Origin: Mumia flava
Lineage (GTDB): Bacteria > Actinomycetota > Actinomycetes > Propionibacteriales > Nocardioidaceae
NCBI RefSeq assembly: GCF_002797495.1
Contig: NZ_PGEZ01000001.1
Location: 2,965,215 to 3,029,214, forward strand
Reading direction: 5' to 3'
DNA: 64,000 nt
Shown here: in pieces, positions 45,603 through 59,769 of the stretch
Numbering within the stretch: the stretch's first letter is position 1
Layout: every line of letters begins with the position of its first letter
The notes under the pieces: model-generated
Databases searched by the model: none
What the model saw: only the letters and a program-made list of their open reading frames with translations
What the model was told of the DNA's origin: nothing
Position numbers and translations under genes: made by a program

Positions 45603-46303
45603 ATGTCGTCGTCGCAGGTGCTCGCCGAGCAGGTCCGTGCGCACGTGCGTGCGGAGGGGATCGACCCGGTACGCGAGGCCGAGCGGGTGCGGGTGATCGC
45701 ACAACGGGTGGCGGCCGAGCACGACGAGTCGTCGCTGACGGGTGCGGTCGCCCCGCTGGCCGATCCCGAGGCGATGGTCGGCGAGGTGGTGGCGCGGGTC
45801 TCCGGGCTGGGTCCGCTCCAGCCCTTCCTCGACGATCCCGAGGTCGAGGAGATCTGGATCAACGATCCGTCGCGGGTGTTCGTGGCGCGCGGTGGGCGGC
45901 ACGAGCTGACGTCGGTGATCCTGACGACCGAGGACGTGCGCGAGCTGGTCGAGCGCATGCTCGCCTCGACCGGCCGCCGCCTCGACCTGAGCCAGCCGTT
46001 CGTGGATGCCACCCTTCCCGGCGGCCACCGGCTCCACGTGGTGCTGGAGGGGATCAGCCGCGGTTTCGCGGCCGTCAACATCCGCAAGTTCGTGCCGCGG
46101 CTGCGCAGGCTGGCCGACCTCGTCGCGCACGGGGCGCTCACGCCGCAGGCCGCTGCGTTCCTGCGTGCCGCGGTGCAGTCCGGCCACAACGTCGTCGTCT
46201 CCGGCGGCACGCAGTGCGGCAAGACGACGCTGCTCAACGCCCTCGCCGGGGAGATCGGCGGCGGCGAGCGGGTCGTCAGCGCGGAGGAGGTCTTCGAGCT
46301 GCG
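45603..46303 (+). pseudogene. cpaF: cpaF (TadA) pilus assembly ATPase, 5' part, cut by an integrative element
   Basis: Residues 1-234 of a secretion/pilus ATPase. The N-terminal domain is followed by GGHRLHVVLEGISRGFAAVNIRKF and Walker A SGGTQCGKTTLLNAL (about 200-214). The gene is interrupted after codon 234 (Arg) at the GCTGCG core. As it stands the frame runs into the element and stops at 46580 after 91 foreign residues. Walker B, the His box and the C-terminal domain are lost to the distant 3' part at 59770-60294. Joined, the two parts give 408 residues in frame. The product powers Tad/Flp pilus extension, so the inserted state should lack pili unless another cpaF exists. Confidence 0.93.
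46298..46303. other. attL core
   Basis: GCTGCG at 46298-46303 is repeated at 59763-59768. Flanking sequences differ on the element side only, which gives exact element ends. Short shared cores are typical of serine integrases. Confidence 0.85.
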
Positions 46304-46312
46304 AATATCTGG

Positions 46313-46318
46313 CATAAT
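46313..46318 (+). promoter_or_regulatory. -10 element CATAAT for leaderless integrase
   Basis: CATAAT ends exactly 6 nt before the integrase ATG at 46325 and there is no Shine-Dalgarno. The hexamer lies 10 bp inside the element, so the -35 region is cpaF DNA in the integrated state and right-end element DNA in the excised circle. Confidence 0.55.
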
Positions 46319-46324
46319 ACACAC

Positions 46325-47695
46325 ATGCGGGCGTTTGTGTACCTTCGACAATCGCTCGACCGCTCTGGCGATGGCGCCGCGGTCGAGCGGCAGCGCATCG
46401 ACTGCGAGAAGCTCTGCGCCGAACGCGGCTGGGAAGTCACGCGGACGTTCGTCGACAACGACACCTCCGCATCGTCGAAGAAGCCGCGGCCGCAGTACAG
46501 CGCGCTGCTCGAGGCCCTGGAGGCCGGCGGGGCCGAGGTCGTGGTCGCCTGGCACGTCGACCGCCTCACGCGCCGTCTGAGCGAGCTCGAGGAGCTGATC
46601 GACCTGGCGCAGCGCACCGGTGTGCGCATTGCCACGGTGACGGGGGATATCGACCTGTCGACCGACGCCGGTCGGCTCGTGGGCCGGATCCTGGCGTCAG
46701 TCGCGCGTGGTGAGGTCGAGCGCAAGGGCGCGAGGCAGCGGCGCGCACAGCAGCAGGCCGCGGCCGAGGGGCGACCGGCCGGAGGCCGACGCGCGTTCGG
46801 CTACAGCAACGACGGGATGCAGATCGTCGAGGATGAGGCGGTTCTCGTGCGCGAGGGGTTCGCGCGGATCCTCGAGGGCGGAACGCTCAAGGGCATCGCG
46901 AAGGACTGGAACAACCGTGGCGCGACGACGCCTCTCGGGAAGCCGTGGGAGCACAGCAACGTGCGCTACGTGCTCAAGAACCCCCGCTACGCCGCGCGGC
47001 GGACGTACAGGGGCGAGACGGTCGGGCCCGCGGTCTGGCCGGCGATCGTCGACGGGGACGTGTTTGACGCCGTGCACGCCGTGCTCTCTGCTCCCGAGCG
47101 CCGCACAACCGACGTGCCGCGGGTGCGGCGGTACCTGCTCCCGAACCTGGCTCGCTGCTACTGCGGCGCGCGGGTGCTGACCGGCCGCACACAGCACGGG
47201 ACGCGCACGTACCGGTGCGAGCGGCAGAAGGGCCACATGTCCCGAGCTGCTCAGCCAATCGACGAGCTCGTGGAGGCAGTCGTCGTCGAGCGACTCTCGA
47301 GGCCCGACGCGGGCGAGCTGCTGTCGGACCCCGTGCGGGCGGACCTCGGGACGTACCGCGAGCGTGTCTCTGCGATCCGTGATCGCCTCGACGACCTCGC
47401 GACCGCTCTCGCTGACGGCCTGCTGACGCTGGACGCCGTCCGGCGAGCAAGCGCGGGGCTGCACGCCGAGCTCGAGAAGGCCGAGGAGCAGATCGCCACC
47501 CTGAGCAATGCCGACGTCCTCGGTCGGTTCGTCGGCGCGGCCGACGTCCGCGGGACCTGGGATGCGGCAGAGCTGGCGACGAAGCGAGCCGTGATCGACG
47601 CGCTGATGACGGTGATCCTGCTCAAGCCGCCAATGGGTCGAGCGCCGTTCGACCCGGAGACGGTGCGAATCGAGTGGAAGGGCGGCGAGGCATGA
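46325..47695 (+). CDS. int: Serine integrase (large serine recombinase)
   Basis: 456 residues. The N-terminal catalytic domain starts FVYLRQSLDRSGDG with nucleophile Ser10. The DRLTRRLSELEELIDLA and EVERKGARQRRAQ segments complete the resolvase core. The recombinase domain (about 155-260: GRRAFGYSNDGMQIVEDEA) and zinc ribbon (CYCGARVLTGR ... YRCERQKGH) follow, then a coiled coil (YRERVSAIRDRLDDLATALADG). It would join attP and attB by a 2-bp staggered cut and excise with a directionality factor. The length matches the phiRv1 integrase group. The frame is open further upstream, but ATG 46325 fits the leaderless promoter. Confidence 0.95.
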   Translation: MRAFVYLRQSLDRSGDGAAVERQRIDCEKLCAERGWEVTRTFVDNDTSASSKKPRPQYSALLEALEAGGAEVVVAWHVDRLTRRLSELEELIDLAQRTGVRIATVTGDIDLSTDAGRLVGRILASVARGEVERKGARQRRAQQQAAAEGRPAGGRRAFGYSNDGMQIVEDEAVLVREGFARILEGGTLKGIAKDWNNRGATTPLGKPWEHSNVRYVLKNPRYAARRTYRGETVGPAVWPAIVDGDVFDAVHAVLSAPERRTTDVPRVRRYLLPNLARCYCGARVLTGRTQHGTRTYRCERQKGHMSRAAQPIDELVEAVVVERLSRPDAGELLSDPVRADLGTYRERVSAIRDRLDDLATALADGLLTLDAVRRASAGLHAELEKAEEQIATLSNADVLGRFVGAADVRGTWDAAELATKRAVIDALMTVILLKPPMGRAPFDPETVRIEWKGGEA

Positions 47696-47964
47696 CCGAG
47701 GGGCGCACGCTGGTACGCATCCGTCACAAGCGTTGCGGGCGAGTGCTTGCGGAGATCACCGAAGCCACGTCGGCTCAAGGGTCGACGTTCGCGGTCCTGA
47801 TGTGCGAGAAGTGTGAACGTCCGTCGCCGGCACGGGTCGCCGCAGTGGCAGCCCGAAAGGGCGCCGACGGGCTGCCGATCACACGCGAGATCCCGTGGGC
47901 CGAGCTGCGACCGTTCATCGCTGATGCGAAGCGAACGGGCAAGACTGTCGACGTGGTAACCTAA
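47692..47964 (+). CDS. Small zinc-ribbon protein coupled to the integrase
   Basis: 90 residues starting in the integrase stop (ATGA). It has KRCGRVL and a CEKCERPS pair, spaced for a small zinc ribbon, then a basic helical C-terminus. Small genes right after a serine integrase often encode recombination directionality factors, but no family match is recognised, so that remains a guess. Confidence 0.65.
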   Translation: MTEGRTLVRIRHKRCGRVLAEITEATSAQGSTFAVLMCEKCERPSPARVAAVAARKGADGLPITREIPWAELRPFIADAKRTGKTVDVVT

Positions 47965-48023
47965 TCTCAATGTTGTAGTTTGTCCCCGGCGGGACCGCCG
48001 GAAGTTGATGTTTGATGCACGCG

Positions 48024-48057
48024 GGGCACGTGCGAACCGTGGAGGTTCGCCGTGCCC
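48024..48057 (+). promoter_or_regulatory. Hairpin burying the ribosome binding site and start codon
   Basis: GGGCACG-T-GCGAACC (48024-48038) pairs with GGTTCGC-CGTGCCC (48044-48057): 14 base pairs, one bulged T, and a 5-nt loop. GGAGG (48041-48045) lies in the loop and stem, and the GTG start at 48052 is inside the stem, so folding would block initiation of the next gene. Confidence 0.65.
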
Positions 48058-48291
48058 ACTTCTATGCGTGGCAGCACACTCGCTCAGACCCGCTCCCGCG
48101 TCGCGGTTGCTACTCGTCTCGGGACGCCGGAGGACGTCACCGAGGCCCGTCGCAATCACGCGGCCGCGAAGCTCGAGGACTACATCCGCCGCACGGTCGA
48201 CGCCGCGCCGCCGCTGACCGAGGCGCAACGTGACCGGCTCGCCGCCCTGCTCCGTCCGACGGCGAGCGGAGGTGATGCCGATGCTGCGTAG
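48052..48291 (+). CDS. Small phage protein (phiRv1-like early gene)
   Basis: 79 residues. The core TRLGTPEDVTEARRNHAAAKLEDYIRRTVDAAPPLTEAQRDRLAALL is a conserved pattern in actinobacterial prophage early regions. Its role is unknown. GTG 48052 is 6 nt from GGAGG; ATG 48064 is the alternative and would free the start from the hairpin stem but not the ribosome site. Confidence 0.75.
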   Translation: MPTSMRGSTLAQTRSRVAVATRLGTPEDVTEARRNHAAAKLEDYIRRTVDAAPPLTEAQRDRLAALLRPTASGGDADAA

Positions 48292-48598
48292 CCAACGAGG
48301 AGCCCGCCCACAGCTCTCGGGTGCCGGGGCGGGCCGTGAACTCGACAGCGGCGAAACCTCAAGTTCGCTTCACAGTCTACCCCTGACCGACGCCGAGGCG
48401 ATGCTGTCCGAGCCGTACCACGTGATTGTGCTGCGCCTCCAGCAGAGGAACGGCGTCTGGATGACCAAGACGTACCGCTCGTTGCCAGCCGCTGAGAAGG
48501 CCCTGCTGCGCGCCCGAGAGCGCGAGGCGGCGGTCTCGCTCTCGATCGCCCGGCTCGTCCACGTCGGAATCGTCGCGGTGGGTGGTGGTGACCGATGA
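48281..48598 (+). CDS. Hypothetical phage protein
   Basis: 105 residues from ATG 48281, which has GGAGGT at a good distance; the ATG at 48275 is too close to it. It contains LPLTDAEAMLSEPYHVIVLRLQQRNGVWMTKTYRSLPAAEKALLRAREREAAVSLSIARLV, a mixed alpha/beta domain. The function is unrecognised. It overlaps the preceding stop by 11 nt and the next start by ATGA. Confidence 0.6.
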   Translation: MLRSQRGARPQLSGAGAGRELDSGETSSSLHSLPLTDAEAMLSEPYHVIVLRLQQRNGVWMTKTYRSLPAAEKALLRAREREAAVSLSIARLVHVGIVAVGGGDR

Positions 48599-48978
48599 AC
48601 GCCCGTCGGAGCTGGGCTCGACGGATGATCGACAAGGCTCGCGGCGCCGTGCTGCCGCCGTACGGGTCGGAGGCGTGGTTGACGCTGCCCGATGGCGACC
48701 CGGTGAAGGTCGCCGCCGTGGTGGTCGCGGCCGAGGCGTGGGCGCAGTCCGGCGACACGCTCGCCGACGACCTGCGCGCCGAGGCCTACGCGCGTCGCGC
48801 CTCGGAGAAGGCGGCCGAGGACGCCGAGTACGCCGAGGCTCAGCGGGCACACCGCGAGCGCTGGGCGCCGGTCGCCCGGTCGACTGTGGTCCCGTTCGCC
48901 AAGCGACGCCGCCGCCAGCTCGAGGCAGCCGGGCCGCGGCCCGGTGACCACCCGGGAGGGGCGGTGGCGCCATGGTGA
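48595..48978 (+). CDS. Phage protein, DUF2742-like
   Basis: 127 residues. AWLTLPDGDPVKVAAVVVAAEAWAQSGDTLADDLRAEAYARRASEKAAEDAEYAEAQRAHRERWAP follows a pattern common to small mycobacterial prophage proteins of the phiRv1/phiRv2 type (the DUF2742 assignment is tentative). It is helical and charged, without catalytic motifs. It is coupled to both neighbours by overlaps. Confidence 0.65.
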   Translation: MNARRSWARRMIDKARGAVLPPYGSEAWLTLPDGDPVKVAAVVVAAEAWAQSGDTLADDLRAEAYARRASEKAAEDAEYAEAQRAHRERWAPVARSTVVPFAKRRRRQLEAAGPRPGDHPGGAVAPW

Positions 48979-50366
48979 GCGACGCGTGGGTGCCGGACCC
49001 GGTCGACAGCGCGAGCGTGCTCGCCGGGGCGCACGAGACGTTCCGTCGGTGGTTCGGGAATGAGTACGACGGTGACGCGCTCAACGCGATGCTGGCGACC
49101 GCGGCAGTGGAGCGGCTTGAGGGTGACCCGCTGTGGCTGCTGCTGATCTCGGGCTCGGGGAACGCGAAGACGGAGACGGCGCAGGCGCTCGACGGGGCCG
49201 GCGCGGTGGTGACGTCGACGATCAGCTCGCCGGGAGCGCTGCTGTCGGCGTCGCCGGCGAGGGAGAAGGCCAAGGACGCCACCGGTGGATTGCTGCGCAA
49301 GCTCGGCGAGCGTGGCGTGCTGGTGATCAAGGACGTGACCAGCGTGCTGTCGATGAATCGCGACATGCGCGCCGAGGTTCTGGGCGCGCTGCGCGAGGTC
49401 TACGACGGACGGTGGAGCCGCAACGTCGGGACCGACGGCGGCCGAACGCTGGACTGGCACGGGCGCCTCACGGTCGTCGGAGCGGTCACGACCGCCTGGG
49501 ACCGCGCGCACGACGTGGTCGCGGCGATGGGTGACCGGTTCGTGCTGCTGCGGATGGACTCGACGACGGGCCGGCAGGCCGCTGGCCGTCGCGCGATCGG
49601 GAACACCGGCCGCGAGGTGCCGATGCGATCCCAGCTCGCCGCGGCAGTCGGGGAGGTGCTGGCCGGCGTCGACCCGGGGCAGGCGGTCGACCTGAGCGAC
49701 GTCGAAACCGATCGGCTGCTCGCCGCGGCGGACCTGGTCACGCTCGCGCGCACCGGCGTCGAGTACGACTACCGCGGCGACGTCATCGACGCGCATGCGC
49801 CGGAGATGCCGACGAGGTTCGCCAAGCAGTTGGCGCAGGTGGTCCGCGGCGGGGTGGCGATCGGGATGGACCGACCCGACGCGGTCCGGCTCGCGATCCG
49901 ATGCGCTCGCGACTCGATGCCGCCGCTGCGGCTGGCGATCGTCGACGACGTCGCGGAACACCCGGATTCATCCACGGCAGACGTCCGCAAGCGGGTCAAC
50001 AAGCCGCGCAACACCGTCGACCGACAGCTCCAGGCGCTGCACATGCTGGGCGTGCTCGAGTGTGACGAGGAGGAGACCGAGTGGGCCGGTCGGCCCGCGA
50101 CACGGTGGTACTACCGACTCGCCGACGGCATCGACCCCGGCGCGCTCAACCCCCAATCAGTTCCAGATTTGTCAGTACCCACCCCTAGCCCCCATGAAGA
50201 GCGAGGGGAGAACGGGACTACGCCTCTCGCCCCTACTGACATTTCTGGAACTGATTCCGACCCGCCTGGTACGGGAGCGGCGAGGGCACGAGAGGTGGCG
50301 GATCGTCGGAACCGGGCCTCGCTCGACCTCGACGAGTACCTCGCCCGACGGAAGGCCTCGTCATGA
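48972..50366 (+). CDS. AAA ATPase with winged-helix C-terminal domain
   Basis: 464 residues. The N-terminal P-loop domain has SGSGNAKTE as a modified Walker A (lacking the usual GKT) and VLVIKDVTSVL as Walker B, then an arginine-rich MGDRFVLLRM. The C-terminal part (about 320-385) is a winged helix (STADVRKRVNKPRNTVDRQLQALHMLGVLE) followed by a disordered tail. The pattern is that of phage or plasmid replication or helicase-loader proteins of actinobacteria. A role in element replication is inferred. Confidence 0.7.
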   Translation: MVSDAWVPDPVDSASVLAGAHETFRRWFGNEYDGDALNAMLATAAVERLEGDPLWLLLISGSGNAKTETAQALDGAGAVVTSTISSPGALLSASPAREKAKDATGGLLRKLGERGVLVIKDVTSVLSMNRDMRAEVLGALREVYDGRWSRNVGTDGGRTLDWHGRLTVVGAVTTAWDRAHDVVAAMGDRFVLLRMDSTTGRQAAGRRAIGNTGREVPMRSQLAAAVGEVLAGVDPGQAVDLSDVETDRLLAAADLVTLARTGVEYDYRGDVIDAHAPEMPTRFAKQLAQVVRGGVAIGMDRPDAVRLAIRCARDSMPPLRLAIVDDVAEHPDSSTADVRKRVNKPRNTVDRQLQALHMLGVLECDEEETEWAGRPATRWYYRLADGIDPGALNPQSVPDLSVPTPSPHEERGENGTTPLAPTDISGTDSDPPGTGAARAREVADRRNRASLDLDEYLARRKASS

Positions 50367-50491
50367 CCGACCCGGGCGCCTGCTCTGGCTGTGGAGCAAG
50401 CCGCGGTGCGTGCAGCGGCAAGAAGCTCATCTCCGGTCGACCGTGCTGCGATGGCTGCTCCCACTCGTCGCCTGGGTCGTCCCGGCCATGA
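50363..50491 (+). CDS. 42-residue Cys-rich micro-protein
   Basis: A short frame starting in the ATPase stop (ATGA) and ending in the start of the next gene (ATGA), which strongly supports translation. It has six cysteines in 42 residues (CSGCGAS, GACSG, PCCDGCS), a zinc-knuckle-like arrangement. No family is recognised. Confidence 0.55.
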   Translation: MTDPGACSGCGASRGACSGKKLISGRPCCDGCSHSSPGSSRP

Positions 50492-50892
50492 CCGGGCGGC
50501 GCAACCCGCACCTGGTCGGGTTCGAGGGCCCCGCGGTGGTGGTGCCGGCGCGTGTTGCCGCGGTGCTGGAGCGGTATGCGGACCTGACGTCGCTGCGAGT
50601 GCGCACGCGCGGGGTGGATCCGGAGGCGTCTGCGGTGCTCGAGGCCCTGCGAGCGGCGGCGATGTCGTGGCGCGCTTCCGCTACCGGAAGCGCGGGCGAC
50701 ACGGAGGCGGAACCGGGCACAGACTCGCAGCAGTGGCTATCGACGACCGAGGCCGCACGGGTGATCGGAGTCTCGTCCCGGGCGATCCGCATGGCGATCG
50801 CCCGGGGCGGGATCCCGGCACAGAGCGTCGGGGATCGGTACCGCATCAGCCGCGAGGACGTGGAGCATTTCCGCGCAGGACGAGGAGACTGA
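50488..50892 (+). CDS. Excisionase-like HTH protein
   Basis: 134 residues. The N-terminal half is VVVPARVAAVLERYADLTSLRVRTRGVDPEASAVLEALR. The C-terminal half is a MerR/AlpA-type winged HTH: WLSTTEAARVIGVSSRAIRMAIARGGIPAQSVGDRYRISREDVEHF. Within an integrase-bearing element this fold is typical of excisionases. It could be the directionality factor or a regulator. Confidence 0.75.
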   Translation: MTGRRNPHLVGFEGPAVVVPARVAAVLERYADLTSLRVRTRGVDPEASAVLEALRAAAMSWRASATGSAGDTEAEPGTDSQQWLSTTEAARVIGVSSRAIRMAIARGGIPAQSVGDRYRISREDVEHFRAGRGD

Positions 50893-50894
50893 GG

Positions 50895-51530
50895 ATGGAC
50901 GCAACGCACATCGAGACCGCTCGCTACTGGCGCGGCAAGTTCGACGAGACCGTCGAGGGGATCCGCAGGGACCGGGCCCTGAGCGACGAGGGGCGCCGCG
51001 TACGGATGGCGCAGGCGTATCTCGAGGCCGCCGACAAGATCGACGCAGCACGCACCAAGCACGAGGCCGCGGTCGCGGACCGTCGGCGCAAGCTGGAGGC
51101 GTCCCTGTTCGGGAGCCAGGGGAGCGCCGACCCCTCATCGGCCATCTCCTACCGGGATGCCCTGGACCGGGTCGACGCCCTGCCCCGAGGCGAGCAGGGC
51201 GAACGCCAGAGCAGCAAGCTGTTCGACCGGGCCGTCATGACCGGGGACGAGCAGCTCCAGCGCGCACTGCTGTTCCGCGGCTGGCGTGAGGGTTGGGACG
51301 ACGTCGTCAACGGGTACATCGCGCAGCGTCCGGGCGCTCAGGACTCTCTGCGTGAGCTCGGCGGACTGATCGAGGCTGCCGACTCGCGGGAAGGTCGACT
51401 CGGCATCACTGCGGCGTTCCGCGTTCCGAAGCCGACCGAGCTGGGCTCGAGGTCGCGCTCGCAGATCGAGGCGTTGGCCGAAGACGACGCTCGATCGCCG
51501 AAGTCCGGTCCGCGGTACGTCGCTATCTGA
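50895..51530 (+). CDS. Hypothetical phage protein, helical
   Basis: 211 residues. The N-terminal coiled-coil-like region (HIETARYWRGKFDETVEGIRRD ... KIDAARTKHEAAVADRRRKLEASLFG) precedes an alpha-helical domain (YRDALDRVDALPRGEQGERQSSKLFDRAVMTGDEQLQRALLFRGWREGWDDVVNGYI). It might be a scaffold or head-tail protein by position before the tape-measure gene, but there is no sequence support. GAGG precedes the ATG. Confidence 0.6.
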   Translation: MDATHIETARYWRGKFDETVEGIRRDRALSDEGRRVRMAQAYLEAADKIDAARTKHEAAVADRRRKLEASLFGSQGSADPSSAISYRDALDRVDALPRGEQGERQSSKLFDRAVMTGDEQLQRALLFRGWREGWDDVVNGYIAQRPGAQDSLRELGGLIEAADSREGRLGITAAFRVPKPTELGSRSRSQIEALAEDDARSPKSGPRYVAI

Positions 51531-51639
51531 CTCGAGCGGGCGCGGGACCTGGGGGCATGCCCTCCCCACCCCCTCAAGTCGCCCCCTCTCGGCATAGCGA
51601 TCTCTCTCCCCGCCAGAAAAACGAACCTCAGGAGGAGCC

Positions 51640-51861: not shown

Positions 51862-52265
51862 TGGCGCCGCCCCTGAAATCTCCGTGTGTGAAAGTCGCTA
51901 TGCCGGGAGGGGACGACGTCGACCGGGGGCAGGGGGTACCCGGCCACCCCGTCCCGACACCGCAGCCCTCGTGGATCGTGGTGGCGATCAGTCGAGTGGT
52001 CACTCAGCAGGCTGCCGGCAAGCTGTGGCCCTGCATCCACCTCGAGGTCGATCGGTCGCGGGTCGGTGCCGTCGTCCTCGGAGAGTCGGCACTGCTGTGC
52101 GCGACCTGCACCGGCGAGCTCGGAGACAACCGGCTGGAGGCCTGCTCGAGGTGCGGCAAGAGCCGCCGCGCGCTGACGCCGGTCCTGTTCGACGCCTCGC
52201 CGACGATCCGTGTCGTCGCCGGCGTGTGCACGTCCTGCTTCGAAGGAGGCTCCAATGGCCGTTGA
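51861..52265 (+). CDS. Zinc-ribbon phage protein
   Basis: 134 residues. A Pro/Gly-rich N-terminus leads into a domain with LLCATCTGELGDNRLEACSRCGKSRRA and a later CTSCFEG, so three CxxC pairs can bind zinc. The function is unrecognised. Its end overlaps the tape-measure start by 11 nt, and the tape-measure ribosome site lies within it. Confidence 0.6.
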   Translation: MAPPLKSPCVKVAMPGGDDVDRGQGVPGHPVPTPQPSWIVVAISRVVTQQAAGKLWPCIHLEVDRSRVGAVVLGESALLCATCTGELGDNRLEACSRCGKSRRALTPVLFDASPTIRVVAGVCTSCFEGGSNGR

Positions 52266-54885
52266 GCTTGCAACCGCGTACGTCTCGCTGGTCCCATCCA
52301 CCCGTGGGATGGGGGCGGGGATCGTCAAGAGCCTCAAGGGCTCCGAGCGCACCCTTGAGAAGTCCGGCAGCAACCTCGGCGGCCGGGTCAAGGCCGGGTT
52401 CGGGAAGGCACTCAAGGCCGGCGCGCTCGGGGCGTCGATCGTCGGCGCGCTGACGGTCAAGAAGGGCCTCGACCGTGCGCTCGGCATCGAGGAGGCGCAG
52501 GCCAAGCTGCGCGGCCTCGGGCACGACGCCGAGTCGATCCAGACCATCATGGAGTCGGCGCTCAAGTCGGTGCAGGGGACGGCGTTCGGCCTCGACGCTG
52601 CGGCGACTACGGCGGCCGGTGCGGTCGCGGCCGGCATCAAGCCGGGCCAGGAGCTGACGAAGTACCTGACGGCCGCCGCCGACGCCGCGACGATCGCCGG
52701 GGTCGACGTCGCCGAGATGGGCTCCATCTTCAACAAGGTGGAGTCGAACACCGTCGCCTACACCGACGACCTCCAGCAGCTCGCCGACCGCGGCATCCCG
52801 ATCTTCCAGTGGCTCCGCGACGAGTTCGACGTGTCGGCCAAGGGCCTTCGGAAGATGGTCGAGGGCGGCGAGGTCGACTCGGACACGTTCCGCAAGGTCA
52901 TCACCGACAACATCGGCGGCGCTGCGCAGGAGTCGGGCAAGACGACCACCGGCGCGTGGAAGAACCTCCTCGCTTCCCTGGGTCGCGTCGGGGCGAACCT
53001 GCTGTCCGGCCTGCTGCCAGACATCCGCGGCGGCTTCGGGAGCATCACCGAAGCGCTCGGCCCCGTCGAGGCGAAGGCCAAGGACTTCGGGGCTGCGCTC
53101 GGGGCCGGCATCGACTTCGTGGTGCCCAAGATCCAGGCGCTGACCCGGTTCGTCCGCGAGAACGCCGACGTCATCACCATCGTCGGCGGCGCGATCCTCG
53201 GCGCGGCAGCCGCGATCAAGACGATCACGACCGTCACGAAGCTGTGGGCTGCCGCTCAGGCGTTGCTGAACGCGCAGTGGCTCGCGAACCCCATCGGCAT
53301 CATCATCGTGGCCGTGGCTGCGCTCGCAGCGGCCTTCGTCGTCGCCTACAGGCGCTCCAAGACGTTCCGCACGATCGTCGACAAGGCCTGGGCGGGCATC
53401 AAGAAGGCGATCTCGATCGCGTGGAAGATCATCAGCCCGATCCTCAAGGCGTACTGGGCGTACCTGACCAAGGTGCTGATCCCGGTGATCGTGTTCCTGT
53501 GGAAGAACGTCGTGAAGCCGGTGTTCGCCTTCATCTGGAAGGCGATCAAGAAGGCCTGGGAGTACATCAAGCCGCGTCTCGAGGCGTGGTGGAAGTTCAC
53601 GACCGACGTCCTCATTCCGGCGATCCGGCAGCTGTGGCGCGACGTCATCAAGCCGGTGTTCGGGTCGATCTGGAAGGCCATCAAGTCGGCCTGGACCGAC
53701 CGCATCAAGCCGGTGTTCGAGGCGGTGCGGGACTTCGTGAAGGACACCCTGCCGACCGTGTTCAAGCGCGGCATCGACGCGGTGAAGCGGCAGTGGGACC
53801 GGCTCAAGAACACCGCCAAGGCGCCCGTCCGGTTCGTCATCGACACGATCTGGAACAACGGCCTGCGCAAGCTCATCGGCGCGATCCCCGGGGTCGACAC
53901 CCCGGATCGGGTCAACGTCGGCTTCCGGCGCGGCGGCTACACCGGCAACGGTCACCCCTCGCAGGTCGCCGGCGTCGTGCACGGTCGCGAGTGGGTCATC
54001 CCCGCCGACGCGACGCGCCGCCTGATGCGCGACCGGGGGCCGGGCTTCCTGCGCGCCCTGAACGGCTACCGCAACGGCGGCTACGTCTGGCCTGCGACGG
54101 GCGGCGTGACGCGCCACAGCGGCTACCCGTGGGCGACCTGGGCGGGCGACATCAACGAGCCCGGCGCCGGCGACTACGGCAACCCCGTGCGCGCCTACAT
54201 GGACGGCGTGGTCGCCTCGACGGCGAAGCTCGGCACGTCGTACGGCTGGCACGTCCGCATGAACCACCCGGGCAACGGTTCGACGCTGTACGCGCACCTG
54301 TCCGACATCCTCGTCAGTGCAGGCCAGCGGCTAAGCGCCGGCGACCTCCTCGGCCGGGTCGGCTCGACGGGCAACAGCTCGGGGCCGCACCTGCACTTCG
54401 AGATCCTCGGCGGCCGCGCTCCCGAGGTGTCCTCGAGCAGCGGCGGCAACAGCTCGTGGCTGTCGGTCATCGGCAACGTGAAGGACTTCCTCTCGGACGT
54501 CCCGGACTGGCTGTCGACGGTGAAGGGCTACGGCGGCACCTGGGGCACGGTGCTCAACAGCGCCGTGCGCAGCGTCGGGTCCGACCTCATCCAGTGGGTG
54601 AACGACAAGATCCCGAACCGCTTCCTGCCCGACAACCCGATCCCCGACCTGTTCGACAACGGCGGGATGCTGACGGGCTTCGGCGTGAACCGCACGGGAC
54701 GCCCCGAGCCGGTGCTGACCGACCGTCAGTGGGATGCGGTCGAGCGGCACCTTCCGCTCGGTGCAGGCATGAGCGATGCCCGTGTGATGCGTCTGTTCCG
54801 CGAGGCGCTGCGTGAGGGCTCGTACGAAGGCACACGAGACGGCCTGGTCGACGCCAGCCGGGGAGCACGGAGGCAGGGCCGATGA
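52255..54885 (+). CDS. Phage tape-measure protein with M23 peptidase domain
   Basis: 876 residues. Tape-measure proteins set tail length and sit in the tail tube. The start is VELATAYVSLVPSTRGMGAGI, typical of actinobacteriophage minor tail proteins. Two hydrophobic segments (about 318-340 and 365-390) and Trp-rich repeats (KAIKKAWEYIKP, WKAIKSAWTDRIKP) follow. An M23/LytM peptidase domain lies at about 610-730, with the first His and Asp in HSGYPWATWAGD and HLHF. It would loosen peptidoglycan at infection. It is the only clear structural gene in the element, yet it is intact. Confidence 0.9.
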   Translation: MAVELATAYVSLVPSTRGMGAGIVKSLKGSERTLEKSGSNLGGRVKAGFGKALKAGALGASIVGALTVKKGLDRALGIEEAQAKLRGLGHDAESIQTIMESALKSVQGTAFGLDAAATTAAGAVAAGIKPGQELTKYLTAAADAATIAGVDVAEMGSIFNKVESNTVAYTDDLQQLADRGIPIFQWLRDEFDVSAKGLRKMVEGGEVDSDTFRKVITDNIGGAAQESGKTTTGAWKNLLASLGRVGANLLSGLLPDIRGGFGSITEALGPVEAKAKDFGAALGAGIDFVVPKIQALTRFVRENADVITIVGGAILGAAAAIKTITTVTKLWAAAQALLNAQWLANPIGIIIVAVAALAAAFVVAYRRSKTFRTIVDKAWAGIKKAISIAWKIISPILKAYWAYLTKVLIPVIVFLWKNVVKPVFAFIWKAIKKAWEYIKPRLEAWWKFTTDVLIPAIRQLWRDVIKPVFGSIWKAIKSAWTDRIKPVFEAVRDFVKDTLPTVFKRGIDAVKRQWDRLKNTAKAPVRFVIDTIWNNGLRKLIGAIPGVDTPDRVNVGFRRGGYTGNGHPSQVAGVVHGREWVIPADATRRLMRDRGPGFLRALNGYRNGGYVWPATGGVTRHSGYPWATWAGDINEPGAGDYGNPVRAYMDGVVASTAKLGTSYGWHVRMNHPGNGSTLYAHLSDILVSAGQRLSAGDLLGRVGSTGNSSGPHLHFEILGGRAPEVSSSSGGNSSWLSVIGNVKDFLSDVPDWLSTVKGYGGTWGTVLNSAVRSVGSDLIQWVNDKIPNRFLPDNPIPDLFDNGGMLTGFGVNRTGRPEPVLTDRQWDAVERHLPLGAGMSDARVMRLFREALREGSYEGTRDGLVDASRGARRQGR

Positions 54886-54955
54886 TCCGTTACCCGCGGG
54901 TCGCGTTCGGTGCGCCTCCGGGAACTCGGGCGAGCAGTTCGCCATGCTTCCGGGC

Positions 54956-55846
54956 ATGTCTTCGGTAGACCCGAACTGGCTTCCCTCCACGCTCGCGCAG
55001 TCGACGGCGGCATTGGTCGCAATCGTCGGTGGCTTCCTCGTGGGCCGCCTGGTGTCGCTGGCCGGTGAAGCCACGGCCCTCGCGCACCGACTTGATGAGC
55101 TCGACGAGCGCCGTCGACTGCGGGCAGCCGCCCTGCTGGAGGTCCACCGTGAACGACTCGACGTCAGTGAGCAATGGTTTCGCGAGCACCACCTTGAGGA
55201 CTTCGTCCGAGCCGAAGGCGCAGTGGATGTCGACGCTGCGGTCGAGAGCTTCATCCCGCTCGGTAGCAGCGCCGCCGAGATGCGCCCGTACGCGGCCACG
55301 CTGGCTGATGCTGTTCGCGAAGCGTTCGACCTCATCAGGCAGCTCTACCCTGCACCGAAGCTCCCTCCACGCAAGTTTCCGCATGCCGTAGACGAACTGG
55401 CCGGCGTCCCACAGGACGTTTACGAACAGGTGGCCGGGCGTCTGATCGACCAGCGGAGGTCGCGGGTGTTGCCGTTTCAGGCCATGATCTCCTCGCCAAG
55501 GGGTGACGTGATCTACCGGAGACAGGATGCGCGGATCGCACGCGAGGAGGAGTTGCGCGCAGAGGTGACGATGCTCGAAGCGGAGCGTGTCCTATTGGAT
55601 GACCAACGCTCTAGGATGGCTCGACCGGAAGGCGTGCGCGGTGGCCTCATCGTCCTCGGCTTGTTCGCCGCGCTGGGCGTTGTCTTCCCAATGATCGTGA
55701 TGAGCCTGCGGCCGGTTCCTTCGGGGCCTGGCGTCCGAGTCTCGCTGATCCTCGCCTTCGTAGTGGGCTTCGTTGCCCTCACCGGCTACATGGTGAGCCA
55801 GGTCCGAACGCTTCGAACGCGGGCAGCGCCGGCAACCGCGGATTGA
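54956..55846 (+). CDS. Element cargo membrane protein, unrecognised
   Basis: 296 residues (ATG 54956; ATG 54944 also possible). An N-terminal TM (about 12-33: STAALVAIVGGFLVGRLVS) is followed by a ~200-residue cytoplasmic region with coiled-coil stretches and then two C-terminal TM helices (about 230-250 and 265-285). It is not a known phage structural or lysis type. Base composition is lower in GC than the tape-measure gene. The position beside a TAC operon makes a defence or superinfection-exclusion role possible. Confidence 0.6.
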   Translation: MSSVDPNWLPSTLAQSTAALVAIVGGFLVGRLVSLAGEATALAHRLDELDERRRLRAAALLEVHRERLDVSEQWFREHHLEDFVRAEGAVDVDAAVESFIPLGSSAAEMRPYAATLADAVREAFDLIRQLYPAPKLPPRKFPHAVDELAGVPQDVYEQVAGRLIDQRRSRVLPFQAMISSPRGDVIYRRQDARIAREEELRAEVTMLEAERVLLDDQRSRMARPEGVRGGLIVLGLFAALGVVFPMIVMSLRPVPSGPGVRVSLILAFVVGFVALTGYMVSQVRTLRTRAAPATAD

Positions 55847-55871
55847 GGTGGCTCCTGCGACTCGAACTGCC

Positions 55872-55886
55872 TCGCGTCCGACGCGA
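55872..55886. promoter_or_regulatory. Palindrome and -10 upstream of the TAC operon
   Basis: TCGCGT-CCG-ACGCGA is a perfect inverted repeat. A TAAGGT (55893-55898) just downstream fits a -10, and GTCACG repeats follow it. HigA-type antitoxins repress their own operons through such sites. Confidence 0.45.
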
Positions 55887-55968
55887 ACCCGCTAAGGTCA
55901 CGGTCACGTCACGGAGGGCCGCGCCCCTCATCCAGAAGTTGAAAAAGCCGGCCCGATGGAGTTAAGTT

Positions 55969-56361
55969 TTGTCTACAGTGCAACCTCATGAGGTCCTCGA
56001 GCGAGGGGCCAAGGGGCAAGTGGTTGCGCTGAAGGAGTCGAAAGGTCGATGTCCGGCAAGGGAGTTCCTCGCCAGGTTGGACAAGCAGGCGAAAGGGCAG
56101 TTTCGTGCTGCGTTTCAGAGGTTAGTGACGACGGGGACGCTCAAGTCGCCCGAGCGGTACCGGCGACTCGAGGTCCCAGGCAAGCCGCCAGTGTTCGAGA
56201 TCAAGGCGCCAGCCGGCCCCGGATGGCGCCTGTACGTCATCCGCGAGGGCGACATCTGGATCGCTACGCACGGGGCGAAGAAGCCATCCGATCGGAAGGT
56301 AGCGCGCGAGGCCGACCGCGCCAGGACCATGCACAGGGAGTGTTGGAATGGGCACGTTTGA
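55969..56361 (+). CDS. higB: HigB/RelE-type toxin of a TAC system
   Basis: 130 residues from TTG 55969 (GTG 55978 is an alternative). The RelE-fold pattern is visible: CPAREFLARLDKQAKGQFRAAFQRLVTTGTLKSPERYRRLEVPGKPPVFEIKAPAGPGWRLYVIREGDIWIATHGAKKPSDRKVAREADRA. Such toxins cleave mRNA at the ribosome. The gene precedes its antitoxin and overlaps it by 14 nt, the HigBA order. A short 11-codon frame begins at the ATG at 55955 and overlaps its start. Confidence 0.82.
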   Translation: MSTVQPHEVLERGAKGQVVALKESKGRCPAREFLARLDKQAKGQFRAAFQRLVTTGTLKSPERYRRLEVPGKPPVFEIKAPAGPGWRLYVIREGDIWIATHGAKKPSDRKVAREADRARTMHRECWNGHV

Positions 56362-56743
56362 TTGGTACGAGGACGACGACGAGAGCCGTCGGATCCTTGC
56401 CGAGGAGACCCTCGTGCTCGATGTCGCTGAGGAGATGCAGGACGCAATCGAGAGGCGGGACTGCTCCCGGCAGGACCTTGCCCGGGCAATCGGCGTCTCG
56501 CCATCCGAGCTTAGCCAGCGCCTCAGTGGGAAGCGGAATCTGACCTTACGGAGCCTTGCCTGCATGGCCGACGCGCTTGACTATGACGTTCAGCTTGGGC
56601 TCATTGATCGACGCGCCTCCGTGACGCCCCTCCCGCGGCTCACTCAGCGACAGGGCGCATGGGCGGGAGATCGTCGGAACTACAATCGGACAGCCCCGCA
56701 TCTTCGGGCGGTATCCTCGGACTCGAATTCGGGGGCCGCGTGA
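56348..56743 (+). CDS. higA: HigA-type XRE antitoxin with C-terminal extension
   Basis: 131 residues. The HTH occupies about 38-82 (SRQDLARAIGVSPSELSQRLSGKRNLTLRSLACMADAL). Residues 88-131 are an unstructured tail with Trp105 and Tyr112. In the M. tuberculosis TAC system the antitoxin has a similar C-terminal 'chaperone addiction' tail that the SecB-like partner must bind. The stop overlaps the chaperone start (GTGA). Confidence 0.83.
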   Translation: MGTFDWYEDDDESRRILAEETLVLDVAEEMQDAIERRDCSRQDLARAIGVSPSELSQRLSGKRNLTLRSLACMADALDYDVQLGLIDRRASVTPLPRLTQRQGAWAGDRRNYNRTAPHLRAVSSDSNSGAA

Positions 56744-57261
56744 GCGAGCGGGACTTGACGATCGCTGAGATGCGGGAGTTCGCCATCAGGGTTCGCGACG
56801 CTACTGCGCTGCGCGACGTGCGGCTTGAGTCCATGACCTGCTCCTCGCGTCAGCCGATCCTCGATGTCCCAATGTCGGTAGACACCGACGTTGCCGTCTC
56901 CGTTCGTCGGGAGAGTGACCAGGCCCTGGCTGCCCGCTCGCGCTACAACGTCGTCGCGAAAGACGAAGGCGATGAGGAGGCTTGGTCCGCATCCTTCGTT
57001 GTGCTGGGGGAGTTTCACTCAGTTAGCGACGACCCGCTGCCCGACTGGGGAGGCGACGCCCAGGCGTCCTTTGGGCTCCTGGTGAGTGCCATGGCACTGC
57101 ACCCGTTTGCGCGCGAGCTTGCCCAGTCGCTCTCGGCGCGGATGGGCTACCCATCGTTCACCCTTGACTTGCTTCCGTCGCTTGCCGAGGAGCCGCCGGA
57201 CAGGGTGGTCACCGTCACGGTTGAGGACGATTCCGAGATGCTCGGCGAGGGGAACCGATGA
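56740..57261 (+). CDS. SecB-like chaperone of the TAC system
   Basis: 173 residues from GTG 56740, close to Rv1957 (181). The SecB pattern is seen: DVRLESMTCSSR, the beta-strand series VAVSVRRESDQALAARSRYNVV and ASFVVLGEFHSVS, and the C-terminal LHPFARELAQSLSARMGYPSFTLDLL, which lines up with SecB FPYARE...PQLNLAPVNF. SecB homologues in TAC operons fold and protect the antitoxin and so gate toxin activity. The order toxin-antitoxin-chaperone is that of Rv1955-Rv1957. Confidence 0.8.
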   Translation: MSERDLTIAEMREFAIRVRDATALRDVRLESMTCSSRQPILDVPMSVDTDVAVSVRRESDQALAARSRYNVVAKDEGDEEAWSASFVVLGEFHSVSDDPLPDWGGDAQASFGLLVSAMALHPFARELAQSLSARMGYPSFTLDLLPSLAEEPPDRVVTVTVEDDSEMLGEGNR

Positions 57262-57413
57262 CCAGCGCGCATCCCTCTCGCTCCTGGCGCGGCTGCGCGA
57301 TGTGCAAGCCGCAGAAGCGACGCGGACAGGGCCGACGCCAGCGTGACCCGATCGCCGTACAGCGCAAGCTCGGCAAACGCCGGCGGTACACCCGCACCGA
57401 CGTCGGGGATTGA
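57258..57413 (+). CDS. 51-residue basic protein, fourth gene of the TAC operon
   Basis: A short frame that begins in the chaperone stop (ATGA). It is strongly basic with a single CxxC (CAMC) in SRSWRGCAMCKPQKRRGQGR and a VQRKLGKRRRYTRTDVGD end. It is probably nucleic-acid or ribosome binding by charge. No family is recognised. Coupling to the TAC genes suggests joint expression. Confidence 0.5.
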   Translation: MTSAHPSRSWRGCAMCKPQKRRGQGRRQRDPIAVQRKLGKRRRYTRTDVGD

Positions 57414-57414
57414 A

Positions 57415-57558
57415 CTAGACGGGCTCGCGGTAGCCGCAGCGTTGGTCCGTGCAGAGACGCTCTCGGTCGGGCTCGCCGCGACCGACAAGTCGGCGAGGTC
57501 GCCTTCCTTGCCGCTCGACCATCGGTGCGCCGCACTTCGGACACGCTTCCGTTGCCAT
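57415..57558 (-). CDS. 47-residue zinc-ribbon protein
   Basis: The frame runs from ATG 57558 to TAG 57415. CPKCGAPMVERQGRR and RERLCTDQRCGYREP give two Cys pairs 30 residues apart, a classic zinc-ribbon layout as in topoisomerase or rubredoxin-like small proteins. It fills the gap between the plus-strand cargo genes. Confidence 0.5.
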   Translation of the reverse strand: MATEACPKCGAPMVERQGRRPRRLVGRGEPDRERLCTDQRCGYREPV

Positions 57559-57605
57559 GAGAACTACCTACCACGCGCATCGTGCAATCTGACAGGGTTG
57601 CGCTC

Positions 57606-58298
57606 GTGGATTGGTCTGCACTGTGGAACGGCACCCTCGACTTCCTGTCCGTCGCGGCCTGGCCGATCGTCGCGTGCGTCGCGCTGTTCATGTTCCGCAA
57701 GCGGATACGTGATGTCACGTCTATCAACGCTGGCGGCCTCGGCCTCGAACTGGAGCCTCCAACGCTGGCGGGCGTTGAAGCGGAGTTCTCCGAGTCAGTC
57801 GCACCTGCGTTCACGCCGGTCCTCGACGAGCCTCCCGAGCCAGGCGCCCCCACCGCACCCGAAGCGCGCGATCCGGCGCTGCCCGACAGCAAAGCGGACG
57901 TCGAGGTTGTAATCCGAGCGGCGGCTCGGGCGGGGTACATGGTCGCCGCGACAGAGCAGTTCAAGTCGATCCCCGAGCCAGAGGTCGAGTGGACAGACGA
58001 AGGCCCGCGAATCGCGTACTGGAAGGGAACCAGCGAGCCGGCGCCTGCGACGGTTACGCCGGCGGACGTTGCGACGCCTCCCCAGCCGCAGCGGACACTG
58101 AGCGCGCTGGAGCGGATCGCTCGGCTAGCACCTGCGAAGTCTGCAAAGCAGCAACTGGAAGATGAGATCCGCGAGCAGATCAAGCGGCAACCTTCGCACA
58201 TGACCGAGTCCGGCCAAGACTCTCCGCTCGTCCGCCGGCTGCGGATGCAGCTCACACACATCGATCCGAACTCCCCGTACGCCTACAAGAAGCCGTGA
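57606..58298 (+). CDS. Element cargo protein with a single N-terminal TM
   Basis: 230 residues from GTG 57606 (GTG 57582 is possible). A TM helix (about 10-29: LDFLSVAAWPIVACVALFMF) ends in the positive FRKRIRD, so the rest is cytoplasmic. A Pro/Glu-rich linker follows, then a charged C-terminal region. It is not recognised. The context (between TAC operon and attR) suggests cargo rather than phage structure. Confidence 0.6.
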   Translation: MDWSALWNGTLDFLSVAAWPIVACVALFMFRKRIRDVTSINAGGLGLELEPPTLAGVEAEFSESVAPAFTPVLDEPPEPGAPTAPEARDPALPDSKADVEVVIRAAARAGYMVAATEQFKSIPEPEVEWTDEGPRIAYWKGTSEPAPATVTPADVATPPQPQRTLSALERIARLAPAKSAKQQLEDEIREQIKRQPSHMTESGQDSPLVRRLRMQLTHIDPNSPYAYKKP

Positions 58299-58390
58299 GC
58301 GGACGAGTAAGGATTCCGCGAACGGGTTCCGCGAGACTTCATCCGTCATGGTGGGCACCGTAGCGTGACAGCGCGCCCCTCCCGCCGGCC

Positions 58391-58582
58391 TTAGCGCGAG
58401 CTGCTGAACCGACCCAACCAGTACAGGGCGACAAGCCCACCGATCGCAAGGGGGATCGCAGCGAGCAGGTTGCCGTCGACTAGTGCCTCCCAGAACCACA
58501 CGTAGCCAAGCACGGCACCAGCGCCCAGGCCGATGAGGATGACCGCGCTGCCTACGGCGCGCGAAATGTCGTCCTTCTCCAT
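58391..58582 (-). CDS. Small two-helix membrane protein
   Basis: 63 residues from ATG 58582: EKDDISRAVGSAVILIGLGAGAVLGYVWFWEALVDGNLLAAIPLAIGGLVALYWLGRF. Two TM helices are joined by a short acidic loop. The size would suit a holin or an immunity/exclusion protein, but no lysin is next to it and no family is recognised. Confidence 0.55.
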   Translation of the reverse strand: MEKDDISRAVGSAVILIGLGAGAVLGYVWFWEALVDGNLLAAIPLAIGGLVALYWLGRFSSSR

Positions 58583-58923
58583 GCCGGTCAATCGTGCTCC
58601 TTCAGACAGGCTGCCGCAGCGGTTTGCACAGTCGTCCGGAAAGCCAGCGGACCACCCGGGGGTGGGCAGGCCTCTTGGACCCCCCCAAACGGCCGACCCC
58701 GCCTCGTCCACCCAGGCAGCACCTCGAGCCCGCCGCCGGACGGCGACAGGCTGGCACCTCAGACCCCACCCGACGTTCTGCAGCTCGACGAGGGGGCGCA
58801 CGTGGCCGGTTCCACGCGCTGGGGGTCAACACCGGACGCTCTCGTGTTGGTTCGGACGTCCTCGACGGGGGCGAGGGCGTACGGGCGGCTGACGCGCTCT
58901 CAGCGCCGCCCCGGGGGGCCCAA
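58583..58923. other. Non-coding stretch
   Basis: 341 bp between two minus-strand genes. All frames here have shadow-like composition. C-rich and G-rich runs are present (for example near 58680), but no hairpin, repeat or gene stands out. Confidence 0.4.
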
Positions 58924-59115
58924 CTACTGAGTGGTGACGCCCTCGAGCTCGAGGACACGCGCGGCGACCTGCACGCGCTCATCCGTCGCCAGAGCGGCGT
59001 CGATGAGCAGCAGACCGGGCCCGGGGACGAAGATCGACCCCTCGGCGAGGTCGCGGACTTCCCGCACGCGGTAGCCAAGCAGCATGAGGCCGGCGAACGG
59101 CTCCACGTCAGACAC
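58924..59115 (-). CDS. Small right-arm element protein
   Basis: 63 residues from GTG 59115, whose GTGTCTGA overlaps the previous stop; a longer TTG start at 59142 is less likely. SDVEPFAGLMLLGYRVREVRDLAEGSIFVPGPGLLLIDAALATDERVQVAARVLELE resembles the N-terminal part of ImmA-like phage peptidases but has no HExxH. The function is unknown. Confidence 0.45.
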   Translation of the reverse strand: MSDVEPFAGLMLLGYRVREVRDLAEGSIFVPGPGLLLIDAALATDERVQVAARVLELEGVTTQ

Positions 59116-59230
59116 CGCTTCCAGGCGCCGCGAGGCCCGCAAGAGCCGGAAGCACGACGAACACCACGGTGACGGCGCAGGAGCCCGCTGCGAGCCTCAC
59201 GAGGGCGCGCAGGGCCGTTCGGGCTGTCAC
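59108..59230 (-). CDS. 40-residue hydrophobic micro-protein
   Basis: The frame starts in the stop of the DUF6907 gene (GTGA) and ends overlapping the next start. One TM helix (CAVTVVFVVLPALAGLAA) follows a basic N-terminus. Overlaps on both sides support translation. Confidence 0.4.
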   Translation of the reverse strand: MTARTALRALVRLAAGSCAVTVVFVVLPALAGLAAPGSGV

Positions 59231-59673
59231 TGGATGCCTGCGATGTAGGCGGCGGCTCGCACGAGGTCCTCTGCGAGCGCCTGAGCGCCGGACGGCGTGT
59301 AGTAGGCCTCGCCGCCGTCCTCGTGGTCGAGCACGACGCGCGGATCCTCGCTCACGGACTGGTCGAGGACGACCGAGACGACCTCACTGATCTTGTGCTC
59401 GTGCCAGCCGACCTCGCCGGGGTCGCTCGAGAAGCCGTGCGCGGTGCACCACGGGAGCGCCTGCGGGCACGGGCCGGTGCGAGGCGGCAGGGCGTTGTCG
59501 GCGACCGCGAGCCAGAACACATCCGCGGGGATGGTGGTCGGATCGTCGAGGTCGGCGTCCAGAAGCGTCGCGACGATGCCGCCGACGTCGTACAGCTCGG
59601 CGGACGTGCTGAGCGTTTCCGTGACGGTGCGGTACAGCGCTGCGGGGTCGATAGTGTTCTGCGTACGGTTCAC
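59227..59673 (-). CDS. DUF6907-like phage protein
   Basis: 148 residues, GTG start. CPQALPWCTAHGFSSDPGEVGWHEHKISEVVSVVLDQSVSEDPRVVLDHEDGGEAYYTPSGAQALAEDLVRAAAYI matches the DUF6907 pattern (Cys-rich start, His, then a beta domain ending in a TPxxAxxLA helix). DUF6907 proteins are common on actinobacterial plasmids and prophages. It is the first gene of the minus-strand right-arm operon that starts 90 bp from attR. Confidence 0.7.
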   Translation of the reverse strand: MNRTQNTIDPAALYRTVTETLSTSAELYDVGGIVATLLDADLDDPTTIPADVFWLAVADNALPPRTGPCPQALPWCTAHGFSSDPGEVGWHEHKISEVVSVVLDQSVSEDPRVVLDHEDGGEAYYTPSGAQALAEDLVRAAAYIAGIQ

Positions 59674-59762
59674 GGTTGCCTCCGTGGATCGAGGCCCCGC
59701 GGCCGGCGCTCCAACGCCGCCCGGGGCCGTTCTGCCGTTGTGTGTAGTTGGCTTCGCTTTGT

Positions 59763-59768
59763 GCTGCG
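59763..59768. other. attR core
   Basis: GCTGCG, identical to 46298-46303. Joining bases up to 46303 with those from 59769 restores cpaF codons ...Glu-Leu-Arg-Phe-Gly-His... in frame. Confidence 0.85.
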
Positions 59769-59769
59769 C

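Follow-up and report, generated by a model that had tools for sequence, protein, structure and literature searches.

Why does a phage-related mobile element lie within the Tad pilus ATPase gene cpaF of Mumia flava, and does its position serve the element, its host, or neither? In the window (the whole stretch of 64,000 nt that was analysed), cpaF opens a tad pilus operon and is interrupted by a 13,465-bp element of this kind, which lies between two copies of GCTGCG. The features at the two ends are as follows.

45603..46303, + strand: 5' portion of cpaF, encoding the N-terminal domain with Walker A and running through the left core
46298..46303, + strand: left GCTGCG core (attL), its shared letters narrowed to GCT by sister element G104
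46318..46325, + strand: arm of an attP-type inverted repeat, TACACACA, whose distance to the predicted crossover step is 19-26 bp
59739..59746, + strand: second arm of this repeat, TGTGTGTA
59763..59768, + strand: right GCTGCG core (attR)
59763..60294, + strand: 3' portion of cpaF from the right core on, with the Walker B side and the C-terminus

A restorable insertion in cpaF

The initial annotation had proposed that the cpaF halves rejoin in frame between the cores, and the computed join confirmed this: the flanks without the 13,465 bp form a single open frame of 408 residues plus a stop. Walker A (GGTQCGKTT, residues 201-209) precedes the junction (codons 232-234) and LLIGEVR follows it from residue 273. 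The further proposal of a precise integrase-mediated insertion separating Walker A from Walker B is supported by the integrase gene, the in-frame join, and the attP-type repeat. Among relatives, four genomes of the same genus (G002-G005) have an uninterrupted gene with identical local sequence, i.e., the empty site, and cpaF was also found broken repeatedly across the family. A 6-bp core could by itself arise by chance. Here chance is unlikely because of the exact frame, the integrase start 21 bp beyond the left core, and the register of the attP-type repeat with that of two sister elements, taken together. Since the integrase and the cpaF 3' half each occur once at the cut-offs used, no excised form of the element is seen in the assembly.

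Two sister elements occupy the same cpaF codon, and their integrases are 60-65% identical. The inverted repeat at the ends of all three elements has a common centre step, as expected of the attP of a large serine integrase (LSR). The predicted step was the best even centre in each of the three, with individually modest shuffle P values (0.011, 0.020, and 0.004; 26-bp arms). The attB of the integrase probably lies within the conserved EEVFELRF motif. A tRNA-type attachment site was ruled out, the window having no tRNA or tmRNA. A promoter for int across the core was also rejected, as the sole promoter-like match was on the opposite strand, and the right end had none.

Genes of the element include the following.

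46325..47695, + strand: LSR, 456 aa (Resolvase PF00239, Recombinase PF07508, phrog_95)
48595..48978, + strand: DUF2742 protein
48972..50366, + strand: protein of 464 aa with a possible P-loop (by eye); no match to a family exceeded the cut-off
50488..50892, + strand: HTH_17 protein (phrog_66, phrog_7506), a candidate for the recombination directionality factor
52255..54885, + strand: phage tape measure protein with an M23 peptidase domain
55969..56743, + strand: possible toxin-antitoxin pair, Gp49/HigB-like (below the Pfam cut-off) and HigA-like (HTH_3)

The integrase was classed as an LSR because it has both Resolvase and Recombinase domains, is of LSR length, and is encoded at one end of the element. 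Close phage relatives were sought for it and discounted: IMG/VR gave 4 loci, 25-27% identical over part of the protein. The HTH_17 protein has a 68% identical counterpart in the element of G221. Among the element proteins tested, the tape measure protein was the only phage structural protein recognised, and no capsid, protease, or terminase-like gene was found (PHROGs on 10 proteins), so that the element falls short of a complete prophage; sister element G104 carries a capsid gene.

The operon continues beyond the element with six genes.

60294..61157, + strand: tadB (T2SSF, Pfam)
61154..62080, + strand: tadC (T2SSF, Pfam)
62164..62355, + strand: small pilin-like protein, named by eye, without Pfam match
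62349..62744, + strand: TadE-like protein (PF07811)
62741..63211, + strand: second TadE-like protein, named by eye, without Pfam match
63205..63639, + strand: TadE/G-like protein (PF13400)

These downstream pilus genes had been described as intact, and all six frames are indeed open, with four of the six proteins matching Pfam (T2SSF twice, TadE, and Tad). The genome has three tad loci and ComEC. The initial annotation had named another intact cpaF serving the operon as evidence against its reading, and this was found in part: there are two further intact CpaF/TadA paralogs (39% and 36% identical), each in its own tad locus.

Recurrent breakage of cpaF in Nocardioidaceae

Among the matches listed for 197 Nocardioidaceae genomes, cpaF was broken in at least 36 of approximately 172 holders, or about a fifth, and missing or degraded in approximately 20 of the 197. 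A tadB-anchored sample (n=80, genomes overlapping those of the census) contained 15 insertion-broken and 56 intact loci, 8 contig ends, and 1 frameshift. Outside Nocardioidaceae, cpaF was short in approximately 11 of approximately 128 rows (open-frame counts, which miss late breaks), and because the gene is seldom short there, any benefit of breakage does not hold for the class as a whole.

The census was read from the matches listed (about 150 rows in each of two piece searches). Holders comprised 164 genomes with the C-terminal piece and 8 with only an ortholog-level N part (G021, G029, G045, G136, G142, G174, G187, and G204); in a 130-genome subset they numbered 109 (104 + 5). The 20 broken genes of the subset were those of G000, G001, G006, G008, G010, G027, G037, G043, G046, G047, G050, G056, G099, G104, G128, G132, G133, G139, G147, and G156, and the 16 outside it those of G167, G173, G177, G178, G181, G188, G190, G196, G204, G210, G212, G217, G218, G220, G221, and G223. 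Counted as broken were G006 and G050, which lack an ortholog-level N part among the matches listed, G204, whose C part was not found, and G099, G128, G132, G147, G212, and G223, whose N part is beyond the retrieved stretch. We excluded contig edges and unclear cases (G007, G014, G021, G026, G031, G034, G040, G045, G191, and G209), and left uncounted G024 (degraded) and G101 (partial duplication adjoining an intact copy).

The genes compared were the two paralogs (TadA1 and TadA2) and tadB only. In the same 130 genomes, cpaF was broken in 20 of about 109 holders, compared with 2 of 124 for TadA1 (Fisher P 8e-6) and 0 of 39 for TadA2 (P 0.002). Of the paralog rows that needed judgement, G051 (TadA1) and G107 (TadA2) were partial but contiguous with a shifted frame, G155 was a contig edge, and G126 and G025 (TadA1), with the C-terminal part absent within about 3 kb, were counted as broken. 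Among 127 of the 149 genomes with a match, none had tadB in two fragments.

Breaks in cpaF fell mostly at conserved motifs (IWIND, VNIRKF, Walker A, EEVFELRF, and TLHASS) and formed about six site clusters. An LSR of one of several lineages adjoined the break in about 21 of the 36 broken genes; none was found beside the other 15, one of which had an IS110-like transposase (by eye). In the LSR tree, seven site labels needed 10 changes compared with a shuffled mean of 16.5, and at least two separate LSR clades have arrived at the 202-208 site. Divergent integrases occupy distinct cpaF sites across genera. The mapped elements were mostly small (about 4-18 kb), and those tested were not complete prophages.

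One possible though doubtful explanation is that cpaF is a bystander, in that several LSR families recognise a conserved stretch of a pilus gene that the host can do without, and losing the pilus brings the element no benefit. The grouping of breaks at conserved motifs is consistent with this, as is the dispensability of cpaF implied by the approximately 20 of 197 genomes (matches listed) that lack it or have it degraded. Within the genus, furthermore, the cpaF 3' half is more conserved than TadA1 (82-85% vs 71-75%), so cpaF may in part offer a more stable DNA target. However, paralogs with the same motifs were rarely broken, tadB in the same operon showed no split in the genomes above, and cpaF has been reached by an IS as well as by several unrelated lineages of LSR.

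Possible function of the disruption

Given that unrelated elements break cpaF repeatedly at other codons, we favour selection for disabling the gene over a switch peculiar to one element. Specifically, we propose, with a probability of roughly one half, that these elements are selected to disable the tad pilus, likely against DNA uptake, and that exact excision would restore cpaF. The integrase would have inserted the element at attB in the EEVFELRF motif, and the split would abolish the pilus motor, with polar effects from tadB onward. The pilus would then stay off until the element leaves, whereupon the reading frame would be exactly restored, and the HTH_17 protein may direct this excision. 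Recurrent breakage would reflect selection on the elements. In Micrococcus luteus, transformation needs two tad clusters (PMC4322843), and by this analogy the Tad pilus here, putatively a counterpart of that of tad-1 or tad-2, would most likely serve DNA uptake, in keeping with the presence of ComEC. A broken pilus might thereby protect small chromosomal elements from replacement by imported empty-site DNA. Counting against this reading are the three tad loci of the genome, the higher conservation of cpaF compared with TadA1, the scarcity of short cpaF genes outside the family, and the 15 breaks with no LSR found beside them. More tentatively, an arms race in Nocardioidaceae could centre on cpaF, with many unrelated integrase lineages each having acquired an attachment site there that shuts off DNA uptake; as exact excision would restore the gene, their insertions would jointly form a family-wide reversible off-switch for transformation.

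Loss of a phage receptor is an unlikely alternative, in which the pilus is a phage entry point and its breakage shields the host of the element from further phages. Tad pilus receptors of this kind are described for Caulobacter (PMC11067988), and the window element and its sisters carry phage genes. Nevertheless, the small size of most mapped elements and the incompleteness of those tested as prophages argue against it, and the literature searched yielded no Nocardioidaceae phage using this pilus.

Least probable in our view is active lysogeny proper, the analogy drawn in the initial annotation, with loss-free excision on a host cue and the element serving the host as a regulated pilus switch. 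The exactly restorable frame, the candidate directionality factor, and the open downstream genes would all suit such a switch, as would the finding that broken cpaF diverges no faster relative to tadB than intact cpaF (medians 0.74 vs 0.74, P 0.72; 16 broken vs 56 intact loci). Omega between the M. flava cpaF halves and five same-genus genomes was 0.12-0.29, and 0.04-0.19 among those five; the corresponding values for tadB (0.25-0.28 vs 0.10-0.22) indicated the same longer branch. We therefore rejected decay of the broken gene, as the tadB branch is equally long and divergence does not differ. Nevertheless, lack of decay is equally expected from young insertions, the assembly contains no excised form, and no lasting host-element partnership is visible because elements differ between species.

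Comparison with known systems

Small mycobacterial elements of the phiRv1 type have a serine integrase, and one of their arms holds an excisionase-like gene together with one for DUF2742. The window element is similarly small and shares these three genes, but it has a lone tape measure gene, and no capsid, protease, or terminase gene was recognised among the proteins tested. Like the comK element of Listeria in active lysogeny, it is inserted precisely in a coding gene whose in-frame restoration is predicted from sequence, whereas it is not a complete prophage, it occupies a different gene in a different host phylum, and its excision is a prediction.

What is new here is that cpaF is an insertion hotspot across Nocardioidaceae. 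Breakage of cpaF by serine integrases was not reported in the literature searched, which included few subscription journals and passages of PMC12637031 and PMC9903846. If our preferred reading of selection against the pilus is true, the conflict between elements and DNA uptake argued for comYC, comFA, comK, and comM extends to Tad pili and Actinomycetota, and among several tad loci the one encoding the DNA-uptake pilus can be predicted. The survey also yields a set of LSRs with mapped natural target sites.

Flp/Tad pili are competence pili in M. luteus (PMC4322843), whereas an uptake role for the present operon is presumed by analogy. The closest parallel is the argument (PMC4774983) that mobile elements disrupt the competence genes comYC, comFA, comK, and comM through convergent integrases. 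Unlike in those cases, the gene hit here encodes a Tad pilus ATPase of Actinomycetota and has about six site clusters, and its competence role would follow from M. luteus. As in those cases, divergent integrases converge on distinct sites of one gene, the targets are orthologous across genera, and the argument of a small benefit against chromosomal curing would apply.

The split pilus motor gene and its element

The Tad pilus ATPase gene cpaF is interrupted in the window by a mobile element of 13,465 bp. The initial annotation of a split gene was confirmed, as both parts and both copies of the GCTGCG core were found, and their join is in frame and yields 408 residues. The predicted parting of Walker A from the Walker B side was likewise borne out, with the junction at codons 232-234, Walker A at 201-209 and LLIGEVR starting at 273. 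Among relatives, cpaF is uninterrupted in four genomes of the same genus (G002-G005), and in a fifth (G001) it is broken too, at another place. An intact CpaF of the genus matched solved CpaF chains (e.g., 8rkd, E 8.6e-59). Site-specific insertion into cpaF is well supported.

Features of the element (coordinates are those of the window)
Large serine integrase (LSR), 456 aa, starting 21 bp past the left core
DUF2742 protein
Protein of 464 aa in which inspection by eye suggests a possible P-loop
HTH_17 protein, with hits to families of excisionases and recombination directionality factors and a weak small-terminase match
52255-54885, tape measure protein that includes an M23 peptidase domain, the only tape measure gene of the element
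HigB/HigA-like pair and several unknown proteins

Pfam searches of 16 element proteins, 10 of which were compared with PHROGs as well, recognised no gene for a head, portal or large terminase, and the element is therefore not a complete prophage; we infer a satellite-like integrative element. Together with two sister elements inserted at the same cpaF codon in genomes G104 and G221, it possibly belongs to satellites that alter the particle of a helper phage. The G221 element has a single tape-measure or tape-measure-like gene (L085:7220-10474), as in the window, and the G104 element a single HK97-type capsid gene (L081:5022-6428).

cpaF as an insertion hotspot

We searched 197 genomes of the family Nocardioidaceae with C-terminal and N-terminal cpaF pieces and fetched the suspicious places. 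Among the matches listed, cpaF was broken (parts far apart, on separate contigs, or one part not found) in 36 of approximately 172 gene-holding genomes, with distances between parts from 2.6 kb (G133) to more than 200 kb (G173). The breaks lay mostly near residues 83-92, 152-163, 202-216, 231-235 (the window site), 298-305 and 317-331; those of G223 (about 130) and the named locus L150 (about 176-181) fell off these sites. An LSR gene adjoined 21 of the 36 breaks (19 including the window, plus G099 and G204), G173 and G196 being the least clear cases. In G133, a short insert splits cpaF near residue 82-83, and its ORF (L098:3113-4435) looks by eye like an IS110-family transposase. Beside cpaF in the other broken genomes, no LSR was found. 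A 6-kb cpaF element in G178 (Aeromicrobium) carries a GmrSD-type restriction protein (L091:3631-4695), and in G101 (L192) the 5' half of cpaF is partly duplicated in tandem beside an intact copy.

A second sample, of named genomes partly the same as in the census, was picked by tadB and thus blind to the state of cpaF. Its 80 loci comprised 56 intact, 15 insertion-broken, 8 contig ends and 1 frameshift (a Demequina MAG). Named examples with broken cpaF include Mumia xiangluensis, Aeromicrobium endophyticum, A. stalagmiti, Nocardioides alkalitolerans and Nocardioides sp. AX2bis. Eight named contigs (L107, L114, L116, L145, L152, L164, L180 and L166) end in cpaF or at most about 200 bp from its part. 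Populations mixed for presence and absence of an element could lie behind broken assemblies at cpaF. Several of the eight ends coincide with residues of insertions elsewhere.

A search of the genome for further cpaF copies found two paralogous motors (TadA1 and TadA2) with 39% and 36% identity, each in a separate tad locus; one locus has a ParA-like gene upstream and the other a Flp-like pilin, both under Pfam cut-offs. Across the same 130 genomes, cpaF was broken in 20 of approximately 109, TadA1 orthologs in 2 of 124 (P 8e-6) and TadA2 orthologs in 0 of 39 (P 0.002). The neighbouring gene tadB, present in 127 of 149 genomes (9 rows partial, 2 with an internal stop), was in two fragments in none of the 127; it was without a stop in all 25 broken-cpaF genomes of this set, partly covered in G006. 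We consider cpaF well supported as an insertion hotspot. LSR genes also occur 1-2 kb 3' of tadB in L146, L178 and L190 (G051), so a second insertion target may lie later in the tad operon.

Integrase lineages and crossover

In a tree of 20 LSRs adjoining cpaF and 6 from elsewhere, the LSRs of the window, G104 and G221 formed their own clade (site 234-235), the Walker A site was held by two separate clades and site 89-91 by a pair, and the remaining LSRs were single. The seven site labels required 10 changes against a shuffled mean of 16.5, and 0 of 200 shuffles were as low; seven open forks and four long-branch rows make some placements unsure. The tree indicates that several integrase lineages came to cpaF separately and that some hold one cpaF site across genera.

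The integrases of G104 (65%) and G221 (60%), whose hosts belong to genus g7, were the closest among those adjoining cpaF, both at the window's codon. The core letters in common are reduced to GCT in G104 and longer in G221. Read as attP, the element ends have an inverted repeat 19-26 bp from one common step in all three elements, with arms TACACACA and TGTGTGTA in the window and CAGAC-type arms in the sisters. Of the even centres, this step scored best in all three elements (P 0.011, 0.020 and 0.004 by shuffling, with 26-bp arms), the register of the two sisters being placed by hand. The HTH_17 protein has a 68% identical counterpart in the G221 element and the next gene matches at 29%; no element gene besides these and the integrase matched there. 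Retention of HTH_17 alongside the integrase fits a role as its partner, judging from sequence.

Predicted reversibility and possible benefit to the elements

In the sequence, the cpaF parts still join in frame at exactly the expected length, with a shared word of at least 4 bp, in 11 of 19 loci analysed, although shared words of 4-5 bp may arise by chance. The rejoined cpaF of G167 was one residue longer, the G104 parts join at a 3-bp core as judged by eye, and exact in-frame rejoining was absent in 6 of the 19. We found no faster divergence of broken cpaF parts than of intact genes, which fits young insertions, selective loss of broken lineages, or occasional excision. The assembly holds no excised form, and regulated switching of the pilus by the element is unproven.

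Extension and retraction of the Tad pilus are driven by CpaF as a single motor (PMC12019362), so the pilus would be expected not to work once the gene is split. Transformation of Micrococcus luteus needs two tad clusters (PMC4322843), and the window's genome has a ComEC match. We infer that cpaF disruption benefits the elements; that they would thereby evade removal through transformation we rate at roughly even odds. The main rival is that elements merely use cpaF as a convenient conserved target. Counted against benefit are the higher within-genus conservation of the 3' half (82-85% in cpaF vs 71-75% in TadA1) and, among the matches listed, open frames below 340 in approximately 11 of approximately 128 outside the family vs 37 of approximately 150 within it, a class-wide search blind to breaks late in cpaF. 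In G087, of the same order outside the family, cpaF parts lie approximately 45 kb apart (L193, L194), and an LSR-like gene adjoins one.

We found no earlier report of this cpaF finding in the literature searched; "tad" and "pilus" had no match in the consulted portion of a survey of actinobacterial prophages (PMC9903846). Croucher et al. argue that elements breaking competence genes escape removal via transformation, and take convergent integrases as evidence (PMC4774983). A 2025 pneumococcal study carries this argument further, and "tad" and "actinobacteria" had no match in its main text (PMC12637031). The cpaF pattern agrees with this argument and adds further sites within a single gene.
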